DNA of 64,000 nt from positions 2,604,001-2,668,000 of the forward strand of contig NZ_CP064791.1 of assembly GCF_017094465.1 (NCBI RefSeq). Direction: 5' to 3'. The position numbers and the translations under genes are program-made. Shown here piece by piece: positions 19,981 through 61,242 of the stretch. The notes beneath the pieces were generated by a model, which was given only the letters and a program-made list of their open reading frames with translations, made no database searches and was not told the DNA's origin. Origin of the DNA: Halapricum desulfuricans (GTDB taxonomy: Archaea; Halobacteriota; Halobacteria; Halobacteriales; Haloarculaceae). Every line of letters begins with the position of its first letter. Positions within the stretch are counted from its first letter, which is position 1.

Positions 19981-21159
19981 ATGCGCGTAGTCACGAAGTT
20001 CGGCGGAACGAGCCTGGGCAACGGCGACCGGATCAATCGGGCCGCGGACTCGATCGCCAAAGCAGTCGAACAGGGCCACGAGGTGGCGGTAGTCGCCTCG
20101 GCGATGGGGAACACGACCGACGAGTTGATCGAGGAGATTGAGTTCGAGACCGACGAGGCGGACCGTGCACAGATCGTCTCGATGGGCGAGCGGACCTCGG
20201 TTCGGATGCTCAAGGCGGCACTGGCGGCCCGGGACATCGAGGCGATGTTTCTCGAACCCGGCAGCGATCAGTGGCCGATCATCACCGACGAACACGGCGA
20301 GGTCGACGTCGAGGAGACGACCCGCCGAGCGCACGCGCTGGCCGGGCAACTCGGCGACGTGGTCCCGGTGATCACGGGCTTTCTCGCCGAGGACCACCAG
20401 GGGAACGTGACGACGCTCGGCCGCGGCGGCAGCGACACCAGCGCCGTCATGCTCGGCAAGTACATGGACGCCGACGAGGTCGTCATCGTCACCGACGTCG
20501 AGGGCGTCATGACCGGCGACCCACGCGTCGTCGAAGGCGCACGCAACGTCAGCGAGATCACCGTCGACGAACTCCGGAACCTCTCGTTTCGGGGGGCCGA
20601 GGTGGTGGCCCCGTCGGCGCTATCCTACAAGGACGCGGACCTCTCCGTTCGGGTCGTCCACTACCAGCACGACGACCTGCTGGCGGGCGGCACGACCATC
20701 GAGGGACAGTTCGAGAGCCTGATCGACCTGGAGGAGACACAACTGGCGTGTGTCACGATCGCCGGTCGAGCGATTCGGAATAGTCCGGGAATCCTGGGCG
20801 ATCTCGCATCGTGTCTGGGCGACAAAGAAATCAATATCGAGGCCAACTCCTCGGGAATGGACTCGATCACGTTCTACGTTGCCGCCGCCGATGCCGACGA
20901 GGCCGAGGCGCTGTTGCACGACGAAGTCGTCGAGGACGAGACGCTCTCGTCGGTGACCGTCGAAGACGACATCGCGGTCGTCCGCGTGACCGGCGGGGAG
21001 TTCTCCAACGAGAACGGCGGGGTCAAGCGCGTCGTCGATCCGCTCGCTGACGCCCACATCGAACTGTACGACGTGATCACATCCGCGACGTCGGTGTCGG
21101 TGTTCGTGCCATGGGACGACCGCGAACAGGCCCTACAGCTGGTCCAGAAAGAGTTTTGA
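19981..21159 (+). CDS. lysC: Aspartate kinase
   Basis: The 392-residue enzyme makes aspartyl phosphate, the first step to Lys, Thr and Met. The N-terminal amino-acid-kinase domain shows KFGGTSLGNGDRI, GERTSVRML and LGRGGSDTSAVML. Two C-terminal ACT domains (ACVTIAGRAIRNSPGILGDL and AVVRVTGGEF) give feedback control by amino acids. The ATG at 19981 is the first that yields the conserved MRVVTKFGGTS; the long upstream open frame is antisense to the acetyltransferase. Confidence 0.93.
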   Translation: MRVVTKFGGTSLGNGDRINRAADSIAKAVEQGHEVAVVASAMGNTTDELIEEIEFETDEADRAQIVSMGERTSVRMLKAALAARDIEAMFLEPGSDQWPIITDEHGEVDVEETTRRAHALAGQLGDVVPVITGFLAEDHQGNVTTLGRGGSDTSAVMLGKYMDADEVVIVTDVEGVMTGDPRVVEGARNVSEITVDELRNLSFRGAEVVAPSALSYKDADLSVRVVHYQHDDLLAGGTTIEGQFESLIDLEETQLACVTIAGRAIRNSPGILGDLASCLGDKEINIEANSSGMDSITFYVAAADADEAEALLHDEVVEDETLSSVTVEDDIAVVRVTGGEFSNENGGVKRVVDPLADAHIELYDVITSATSVSVFVPWDDREQALQLVQKEF

Positions 21160-37509: not shown

Positions 37510-39945
37510 ATGGACTATCACGAGGCGGCGAACTTCTGTCTGGAACTCCGCCGGTTCCCGCCCGGACGCGAGACCGACGCTACCGAGGCGTTGCTGTCGG
37601 AGCTGGGCGACCCCCACGAGGCGGTGCGGGCGATCCAGATCGCCGGATCGAACGGCAAGGGCTCGACGGCCAGAATGCTCGAATCCACGCTTCGGGAGGC
37701 GGGGCTATCGGTGGGATTGTACACCTCGCCGCATCTGGACGACGTCCGGGAGCGGATCACGGTCGACGGTCGCAAGCTCCCGAAAGCGGCGCTGATCGAG
37801 TTCGCCGAGCGGATCCAGCCGTACGTGACCGAGCGGGCAGCCGAAGGGGAGGCGCCGACGTTCTTCGAGACGATGACCGTGCTGGCGCTGTGGCAGTTCG
37901 CCCGCGCCGGCGTCGACGTCGCGGTACTTGAGGTCGGGATCGGCGGCCGTTACGACGCCACGAGCGTGGTCGATCCGGTCGCCAGCGCCGTCACCAGCGT
38001 CAGCCTCGAACACACGGATCTGCTGGGTGAGACCGTCGAGGAGATTGCCCGGGACAAGGCCCACGTCGCACCTGCGGACGCGCCGATTGTCACCGGTGCG
38101 ACCGGCTCCGCACGCGAAGCGATCCGCGAGGTCGCCGGCGAGGTCGTGACCGTCGACGAGGACGACGCCGACACGACGGTTTCCTACGGCGGTGTGAGAG
38201 ACACGGACGGGCAGGTCGAACTCGACGGCGAGGGGTTTCACGTCGAGACGCGGCTGCCGCTGCCGGGCGCTCACCAGGCCCGCAACGCGGGCGTCGCCGC
38301 GACGCTGGCCCGACAGGTCGCCGACGTCGACGAGGAGACGCTGGGGAGGGGGCTGCGAAACGCCCACTGGCCCGGCCGGTTCGAAGTGATGGACCGGGAG
38401 CCGCTGACCGTCCTCGACGGGGCGCACAACCCCGGCGGCTGCGAGCGGGTCGCCGAGACTCTCGAGGAGTTCGAGTACGACGACCTCCATCTGGTCGTCG
38501 GCGCGATGGTCGAGAAGGACCACGAGGGTATCGCCGCCGCCCTGCCCGATCCGGCGCACGTCGTGGCCTGTCAAGCCGACGTCGACCGGGCCGAAGACGA
38601 GACAGTCGTGGCCGCCGCCTTCGGGAGTGCGTACCCCGACGCGACGGTCGAGACGCGCTCTGACGTGGCGGGCGCCCTGGAGGAGGCACTCGACGCCGCC
38701 GATCCGGACGACGCCGTCCTCGTGTCCGGATCGCTGTACACCGTTCGGGAAGCCCGCACACGCTGGACGCGGGCGGTCATCCCCAAGCGGATCGAGGAGC
38801 TAGACGACGCACGCGAGACCCTGTCGGGGGCGCACGTCACCGACGCGGGCGTCTGGCGGATGCGCGGGAAGGGCGTCCACCGCGTCCTCAAGACGCGCGT
38901 CCAGCCCCGCCAGGCCCAGTACCTCAAAGAGGAGTTGCTCTCGCTCGGCGGGGAGTGTGCGGTCTCGGGGCTGAACAACCAGGACGAGGAGCCCCTGGAC
39001 GTCGTGCTGATGGCGACGATGGCGCAGTTCAAGCGGCTGGTCGGGAAACTCGAGGGGCAGCCCTACGGCCTCTCGCCGCTCGCGGATCGGCTGCGTGAGC
39101 ACCTCGAAATCGGCGTCGAACCCGACCGGCGGGGTTACCCCTGGGAGGACGGCACCGCGATCATGGGGATCCTCAACGTCACGCCGGACTCGTTCCACGA
39201 CGGCGGCGAGTACGACGCCGTCGAGGACGCCGTCGCCAGGGCCGAGGAGATGGTCGAAAACGGGGTCGACATCGTCGACATCGGAGGGGAGTCGACCCGA
39301 CCCGGCGCGGATCCGGTCCCGGCCGAAGAAGAGATCGAGCGCGTCGTGCCGGTGATCGAGCGCGTCACCGAGCTGGACGTCGCGATCTCGATCGACACGC
39401 GCAAGGCGCCGGTCGCCGAGGCCGCACTGGCAGCGGGCGCGGACATCCTCAACGACGTGTCGGGACTCGAAGATCCCGAGATGCGTCATCTCGCGGCCGA
39501 CTACGACGTGCCGGTCGTGGTGATGCACAGCATCGACACGCCGGTCGATCCCGATCGAGAGGTCCACTACGACGACGTCGTCGAGGACGCCATCGACCAG
39601 TTGAAAGAGCGGGTCCTGCTGGCCGAGAAGGCCGGGCTGGACCGGTCACAGATCCTCGTCGACCCCGGGATCGGGTTCGGGAAGACGCCCGCCGAGGACT
39701 TCGAGTTGCTCGGCCGGCTCGAGGAGTTCCGGGCGCTGGGCTGTCCGGTGCTAGTCGGCCACTCACACAAGTCGCTGTTCGGTCATATCGGGCGTGACAG
39801 CGACGAGCGATTAGCTCCGACTGTCGCCGGGACGGCGCTGGCGGCCGAACACGGCGCCGACGTGGTCCGCGTGCACGACGTCGCGGAGAACGTCGCCGCC
39901 CGGGACGTCGTGGCTGCCGCCGAGGATCCGGACGCCGCCGAATGA
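37510..39945 (+). CDS. folCP: Fused folylpolyglutamate synthase / dihydropteroate synthase (FolC-FolP)
   Basis: The 811-residue protein is a FolC-FolP fusion. The N-terminal half (1-410) is a Mur-ligase-type folylpoly-gamma-glutamate synthase: AGSNGKGSTARMLESTLREA (P-loop), TSPHLDDVRERI, SLEHTDLLG, LDGAHNPGGCERV. The C-terminal half (about 540-810) is dihydropteroate synthase: IMGILNVTPDSFHDGGEY, DIGGESTRPGADPV, DPGIGFGKTPAEDF, GHSHKSLFG. A linker of about 120 residues lies between. The enzyme makes and glutamates folate precursors. This fusion is known from haloarchaea. Confidence 0.95.
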   Translation: MDYHEAANFCLELRRFPPGRETDATEALLSELGDPHEAVRAIQIAGSNGKGSTARMLESTLREAGLSVGLYTSPHLDDVRERITVDGRKLPKAALIEFAERIQPYVTERAAEGEAPTFFETMTVLALWQFARAGVDVAVLEVGIGGRYDATSVVDPVASAVTSVSLEHTDLLGETVEEIARDKAHVAPADAPIVTGATGSAREAIREVAGEVVTVDEDDADTTVSYGGVRDTDGQVELDGEGFHVETRLPLPGAHQARNAGVAATLARQVADVDEETLGRGLRNAHWPGRFEVMDREPLTVLDGAHNPGGCERVAETLEEFEYDDLHLVVGAMVEKDHEGIAAALPDPAHVVACQADVDRAEDETVVAAAFGSAYPDATVETRSDVAGALEEALDAADPDDAVLVSGSLYTVREARTRWTRAVIPKRIEELDDARETLSGAHVTDAGVWRMRGKGVHRVLKTRVQPRQAQYLKEELLSLGGECAVSGLNNQDEEPLDVVLMATMAQFKRLVGKLEGQPYGLSPLADRLREHLEIGVEPDRRGYPWEDGTAIMGILNVTPDSFHDGGEYDAVEDAVARAEEMVENGVDIVDIGGESTRPGADPVPAEEEIERVVPVIERVTELDVAISIDTRKAPVAEAALAAGADILNDVSGLEDPEMRHLAADYDVPVVVMHSIDTPVDPDREVHYDDVVEDAIDQLKERVLLAEKAGLDRSQILVDPGIGFGKTPAEDFELLGRLEEFRALGCPVLVGHSHKSLFGHIGRDSDERLAPTVAGTALAAEHGADVVRVHDVAENVAARDVVAAAEDPDAAE

Positions 39946-60779: not shown

Positions 60780-61242
60780 ATGTCGGGGGACAATGCAGTA
60801 CCACTCGAATCGATCGCCAGCCTCCCGGAGTTCTACAGGCGGAGCAGGCCGAGTGCCTCGGGGTCGTACGGAAATCGAAGATTTCCGTGATGGGCGTGGG
60901 ACGAAGTCCCACGAACCTGCGAACGGCGCAAGCGCCGTGAGCAGATGACGAGAATCGGAGATTCTCGAACCACTTGACCCCGGAGCAGTTCACCATCAGA
61001 CCATCTCGCCGGACGGCTCACAGGTCGCGTTCTACTACGACGAGAACGGCCGTAACGAACTGTATCTGCTCGATCGAACAGGCCCGGCTGTTCCGTGACG
61101 CGACGTGGTGGATCGGGGCTGGGTCGACGGCGAGGAGTACGAGTACGTGGAACTCGGCGAGGAAGGACACGGCTCGACGGACATCCAGCAGAAGATCCGC
61201 GCGTTCGAACACCTGAGCGACTACCTGCGTCGGCGGCTGTAG
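60780..61242 (+). pseudogene. Broken S9 (prolyl oligopeptidase) family peptidase
   Basis: Three in-order pieces of an S9 peptidase remain. First, MSGDNAVPLESIASLPEFY (60780 on) is the usual N-terminus. Second, after a hairpin-rich insert, SPDGSQVAFYYDENGRNELY with LLDRTG (about 60988-61090) is the first propeller blade. Third, WVDGEEYEYVELGEEGHGST, then DIQQKIRAFEHLSDYLRRRL (about 61112-61242), is the catalytic-domain C-terminus with the active-site His. The middle about 500 codons are gone and stops and frame changes separate the parts. It cannot make an enzyme. Confidence 0.78.
60849..60967. repeat. Array of five evenly spaced perfect hairpins
   Basis: Five perfect inverted repeats follow one another. 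They are CCGAG-tgc-CTCGG (60849-60861), CGGAAATC-gaa-GATTTCCG (60869-60887), CGTGGGAC-gaa-GTCCCACG (60895-60913), ACGGCGC-aa-GCGCCGT (60923-60938) and CGAGAATC-gga-GATTCTCG (60949-60967). Centres are 23-28 bases apart. Stem sequences differ but loops are alike, so the form and not the sequence is repeated. The array splits the S9 peptidase pseudogene after its N-terminal piece. Confidence 0.8.

Follow-up and report, generated by a model that had tools for sequence, protein, structure and literature searches.

Small paired-hairpin repeats dispersed in genomes are known from REPINs and the Rickettsia palindromic elements, some copies of which lie in frame in genes, and REPINs are linked to Y1-type transposases. 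The units described below resemble them in form, as small, dispersed, paired-hairpin repeats, and differ in that they mainly target IS605 elements and nest in each other. In Haloquadratum walsbyi, palindrome-associated transposable elements (PATEs) were described by Dyall-Smith et al. 2011 (PMC3119063). As characterized in passages of that paper, PATEs possess near-terminal palindromes, lack terminal inverted repeats, target duplication, and a transposase gene, and have ends in common with IS605-type elements, with terminal-only forms of ~52 bp (PMC3119063). The same passages present the small mobile repeats SMR-A of Haloquadratum (HqIRS42, HqIRS43, and HqIRS55), which are ~110 bp long, occur in many copies with inverted ends and no target duplication, and insert in the near-terminal palindromes of PATEs and IS605-type elements; in 2011, their "mechanism of mobilization remains enigmatic" (PMC3119063).

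The present study concerns a row of hairpins in the window, i.e., the whole analysed stretch of 64,000 nt (Table 1). Very probably, the segment is a three-layer nest, in which a PATE holds a hairpin unit (unit A), unit A holds a second one (unit B), and the stems would be kept up by DNA template switching. Row and element belong to two types already named (PATE and SMR-A-like), and what is new is the anatomical detail together with a testable copying signature.

Table 1. Features of the nested segment, in positions of the window.
Feature	Position	Strand	Description or evidence
S9-type peptidase relic	60780-61242	+	G002 gene alignment, frame translations
TCTAC target pentanucleotide	60832-60836	+	Precedes the element in all full copies; present at the L009 empty site
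Terminal-only IS605-type element (PATE), no target duplication	60837-60993	+	Copies elsewhere in the genome; empty sites in G002 and for L009
Left arm (GCCTCGGGG) of near-terminal palindrome	60855-60863	+	Pairs with CCCCGAGGC in row-free L021, L026, and L027
Right end CTTGACCCCGGAGCAGTTCAC, including right palindrome arm	60973-60993	+	IS605 right ends that follow tnpB have this end type, e.g., L020/L268
109-bp hairpin row between GGGG and CTTGACC (SMR-A-like)	60864-60972	+	Absent from L021, L023, L026, and L027; 54 bp in L013, L015-L018, and L024
Unit A, left half, with hairpin 60868-60888	60864-60891	+	Covariance model R2 match 60864-60918, 55.9 bits, E 5.7e-17
Unit B, 55 bp, lying within unit A at its centre, with hairpins 60895-60913 and 60923-60938	60892-60946	+	L249 vs L255; B alone elsewhere
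Unit A, right half, with hairpin 60949-60967	60947-60972	+	Copy comparison
Hairpin 1, CCGAG-tgc-CTCGG	60849-60861		Stem 5 bp, loop tgc
Hairpin 2, ACGGAAATC-gaa-GATTTCCGT	60868-60888		Stem 9 bp, loop gaa
Hairpin 3, CGTGGGAC-gaa-GTCCCACG	60895-60913		Stem 8 bp, loop gaa
Hairpin 4, ACGGCGC-aa-GCGCCGT	60923-60938		Stem 7 bp, loop aa
Hairpin 5, CGAGAATC-gga-GATTCTCG	60949-60967		Stem 8 bp, loop gga

A copy search across the two contigs (2.88 Mb) of the genome that contains the window revealed four further near-full copies of 60832-60993 (99, 97, 90, and 88% identity) plus many partial ones, the IS605-derived relic being represented there by ~20 full or partial copies. All full copies sit behind TCTAC and start with AGGCGGAGCAGGCCGAGTGCCTCGGGG or a near variant, and most end with CTTGACCCCG-GAGCAGTTCAC or a variant; the pentanucleotide would be the TnpB target-adjacent motif of the IS605 subtype here. 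Given these dispersed copies with common ends, of which the left one adjoins IS200-type tnpA genes and the right type stands behind tnpB, the segment 60837-60993 is a terminal-only derivative of an IS605-type transposon, that is, a PATE. An intact tnpA with the matching left end is encoded in the same genome (132 aa; Y1_Tnp, E 2.7e-37), where four of five tnpA matches are unbroken, and the PATE was presumably moved in trans by an IS200-type TnpA that the genome still encodes. Similar to PATEs, the element shares its ends and near-terminal palindrome with IS605-type elements, is too short (157 bp) for a transposase gene, and shows no target duplication, here with a fixed 5' target in all full copies and with two empty sites; unlike PATEs, it belongs to another genus, and its palindrome holds a 109-bp insert. 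A phage-borne element was rejected, with no match in 50,697 phage records; 62 haloarchaeal plasmids matched.

The 157-bp PATE is inserted 3' of TCTAC in the peptidase gene, the relic of which consists of 19 N-terminal codons, the element, more N-terminal codons after 60993, and, beyond a large internal deletion, the final ~40 codons. In the related genome G002, the peptidase gene is intact, with an open frame of 618 aa, and does not contain the segment; its GAG TTT TAT followed directly by CAT CCG ACC corresponds codon for codon to GAG TTC TAC, the 157 bp, and CAT CAG ACC in the window. The original prediction that the hairpins may be an inserted element in the S9 peptidase relic is thereby borne out. 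Its suggestion that the element caused the gene break stands insofar as an in-frame stop is added at 60888-60890, but the large internal deletion is a second lesion; the idea that the element alone inactivated the peptidase was rejected, as the relic is without most of the gene's middle. The second empty site concerns the element copy L009, which lies in an unrelated 85-bp repeat; unoccupied copies of this repeat in sister genomes read TCTAC directly followed by GAATG. Judged by these two empty sites, PATE insertion is precise and free of target duplication. The ~85-bp sequence (L009, L305, L306, and L309; G000:C1:1220298-1220363 and 1220519 on; G005, G001) is a separate dispersed repeat, with 16 matches in the window's genome and ~40 each in G001 and G005, and holds the PATE in one copy. 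At another locus (L270; G000:C1:728049-728199, minus strand), the element's left end with a row of A and B joins a foreign tail (LIYRRSRPSASGSYGNRRFP) to what by eye is an apparent archease gene.

With respect to the inner layers, row-free element ends have an unbroken palindrome, CCTCGGGG directly followed by CTTGACCCCGAGG (L027; L021 and L026 with one change), and it is at this junction that L013, L015-L018, and L024 carry the 54-bp two-hairpin unit A. The 109 bp of the window and its near copies consist of unit A with the 55-bp two-hairpin unit B in its centre. In G001, the host site L249 has A alone and the paralogous site L255 has A plus B; stand-alone B-like units were observed in other genomes, both at the 3' ends of tnpB and between genes, and the hairpin apex of one unit A in L284 holds another unit A. 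At the level of sequence, comparison of the copies demonstrates that the units are nested and recurrent and where they are inserted. Following the PATE, the second layer would have arisen when the SMR-A-like unit A inserted at the step between G and C in the apex of the near-terminal palindrome, bringing near-symmetric ends (TCGT.../...ACGA or ...ACCA) and two hairpins flanking a TGATSA centre, and the third when unit B, a second two-hairpin repeat, entered that centre. The even spacing of the hairpins follows from this architecture, as each unit consists of two ~20-nt hairpins with short linkers and the units are nested. As the palindrome keeps its base stem, the host element may still be able to move, carrying the row. 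The stem sequences, which had been taken as unrelated to each other, instead fall into a few recurrent types, the row being built of two recurrent units with two hairpins each, one nested in the other. As the source of the four hairpins, tandem doubling of a single unit had been considered and was replaced by nesting on account of L249/L255 and the stand-alone B. A third two-hairpin row type was observed in another IS605-like palindrome (CCCCGCCC...GGGCGGGG) at L260, L263, and L265 (G001 C1:490603, C1:706686; G000:C2:55724).

Unit A is likened to HqIRS42, HqIRS43, and HqIRS55 by their described properties, not by sequence, and is itself present in Haloquadratum contigs (L134 and L155). The window row agrees with SMR-A in length (109 bp), but most unit A relatives measure 54 bp; unlike SMR-A as described, the ~110-bp form here resolves into two nested ~55-bp units. 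SMR-A has prominent inverted terminal repeats; unit A has TCGTYCG/CGRACGA at the family level, and the outer ends of the window copy pair imperfectly (TCGT/ACCA). As in SMR-A, there is no target duplication, palindrome and tnpA sites being found with and without unit A. Hairpin rows, such nesting, and loop inversion are not described in the passages of PMC3119063 considered here. Compared with the right-end and omegaRNA hairpins of IS200/IS605 elements, the row-bearing palindrome is of the same right-end/left-end hairpin type, but in its apex the row has been added, which many copies lack.

A covariance model of unit A (R2), searched over 76 family genomes at a threshold of E below 1e-8, matched 59 of the 76 genomes and 21 of 22 genera, and a DNA pattern finds unit A in genera from Haloquadratum and Halorubrum to Natronomonas and Natrialba; these genome-wide counts were obtained by model and sequence searches, and 80 loci in the sample come from a pattern fixing part of hairpin 2, their stems being partly paired by the pattern. 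According to hand-made host-site classes for 171 non-redundant rows, 81 rows lie in IS605 near-terminal palindromes, a preference shared with SMR-A, 13 in a CCTCAAGGAG stretch at tnpB 3' ends, and 5 at one tnpA position, while 10 lie in halves split by unit B; among the remaining 62 are rows at additional tnpB positions and in intergenic islands rich in hairpins. The unit stands between G and C in 57 of 61 distinct sites, and the junction flanks pair over at least 7 bp in 65/171 rows compared with 1/166 controls taken 25 nt further out. In L059 (1501-1554; G000:C1:727730-727783), a 54-bp unit A splits tnpA between EILS and LHIS without duplication, as seen against the intact L066 and L273, and the same tnpA position is also occupied in L098, L118, L150, and L158.

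The high share of rows in IS605 palindromes, and the row of A and B that near-identical dispersed copies (97-99% identity) show to have been copied together with the PATE, as far as sequence can tell, would suit a rival explanation in which the row is only a passenger, A and B having arisen once in an IS605 palindrome and spread solely by IS605 transposition or recombination. This is rather unlikely, though the most viable of the alternatives, as unit A occurs at several unrelated tnpA and tnpB sites, in other palindromes, and within another unit A (L284), and unit B is also found alone. The sites in tnpA and tnpB and the nested ones make independent movement of the units likely. No transposase with ends matching those of units A and B is known, which was counted against the three-layer reading. 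A tentative and somewhat doubtful extension of that reading would make A and B a self-standing class of ~55-bp paired-hairpin parasites of IS605 elements that insert at steps between G and C, prefer hairpin apexes, nest mutually, and are not moved by a conventional transposase but made and rewritten through template switching at DNA hairpins. Obscure haloarchaeal mini-repeats (SMR-A) become tied to countable properties, namely a target between G and C, often in a hairpin apex, and a DNA-copying signature in the stems. A different two-hairpin row was seen in frame near the TnpB C terminus (LQYLRR-PQKS...) in L264 (G000:C1:1175200-1176000), L230, and L233, where it would overlap the omegaRNA region, with a unit B following it in L264. 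In addition, L062 (1140-1860; G003:C1 about 2010000) and L068 represent intergenic islands that consist nearly entirely of perfect hairpins differing from one another, include a unit A, and have no transposase gene seen nearby.

Stem upkeep was analysed on 108 unique 54-nt rows, in which 1654 of 1728 stem pairs were Watson-Crick and the mismatches comprised 16 G.T, 22 A.C, and 36 other (G.T vs A.C, P = 0.42). Variable stem positions alternate between GC, CG, and AT, or between AT, TA, and GC, with changes on both sides, and such switches are not passable through G.U alone. Differing loops on the same stem type were reverse complements in 386 of 2518 pairs, compared with 9 reversals and 4 complements, these pair and loop counts not being independent because the rows share ancestry; between the window and its near-identical copy L010, the last loop reads gga/tcc. 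Template-switching footprints, including multi-pair stem changes and inverted loops, have been reported (PMC8794818). Hairpin arms copied from each other during DNA synthesis would yield new sequence, perfect stems, and inverted loops. The two-sided stem changes, the lack of a G.T excess, and the reverse-complement loops suggest that DNA-level copying is favoured over RNA selection. The original prediction had called for selection or a copying process acting on structure; its copying branch gains from this pattern of change, whereas RNA selection is not supported by the G.T test.

It is considerably less probable that the row is a functional RNA domain, such as extra arms on the right-end hairpin of a TnpB-guiding omegaRNA, brought in on a non-autonomous element and kept up by selection on RNA pairing. 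The 157-nt element does fold far better than its own shuffles (z -6.8 as RNA, and -6.0 as DNA), and the stems of the rows change on both sides, but G.T is in no excess over A.C (16 vs 22), even though G.U is favoured by the covariance model. At tnpB right ends, the row is situated immediately upstream of the element's end, in the omegaRNA-encoding region, and H. salinarum omegaRNAs carry a right-end hairpin (PMC12558985); yet rows were also observed at left ends, inside tnpA, and between genes, positions from which no omegaRNA would be expected. At tnpB right ends, where the row would form part of the right-end hairpin of the omegaRNA, an RNA role is conceivable but gains no support from the G.T test. 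An Rfam search gave no match up to E 5, on which ground a known RNA family was rejected. As a warning, base-pair changes on both sides of a stem, a pattern commonly regarded as proving a functional RNA, can come about with no excess of G-U, and sequenced haloarchaea offer many such hairpins, which would be a good natural test set for template-switch mutation.

With regard to geometry, place, loops, and perfect pairing of the five hairpins were as first proposed, and so were steps of 23-28 bases (centre to centre, ~23-28 nt), but the stems span 5-9 bp instead of 5-8 bp. The 5-bp hairpin at 60849-60861 is not a unit of the row but another way of pairing within the left arm of a longer palindrome; in the palindrome that holds it, the minimum-energy fold pairs GGGGTC with GACCCC. 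Against 60 dinucleotide-preserving shuffles of the window, one four-stem row (stems of at least 6 bp, within 130 nt; 60868-60967) was observed where 0.017 were expected per 64 kb, in accordance with the expectation that such rows exceed those in shuffled sequence of equal composition, and one five-stem row (at least 5 bp) where 0.1 were expected. The hairpin row is real, non-random, and not unique to the window. A chance cluster of palindromes in GC-rich DNA is scarcely credible and was rejected in view of the shuffles and the dispersed copies, as the same row recurs at other loci with 90-99% identity and the structural model matches dozens of genomes (E below 1e-8), notwithstanding that single perfect 6-bp hairpins are common in the window (120 observed vs 87 expected) and that two further three-hairpin rows lie in its ordinary-looking coding DNA. 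The latter are located at 20919-21015 and 39477-39583, with 0.5 such rows expected by chance.
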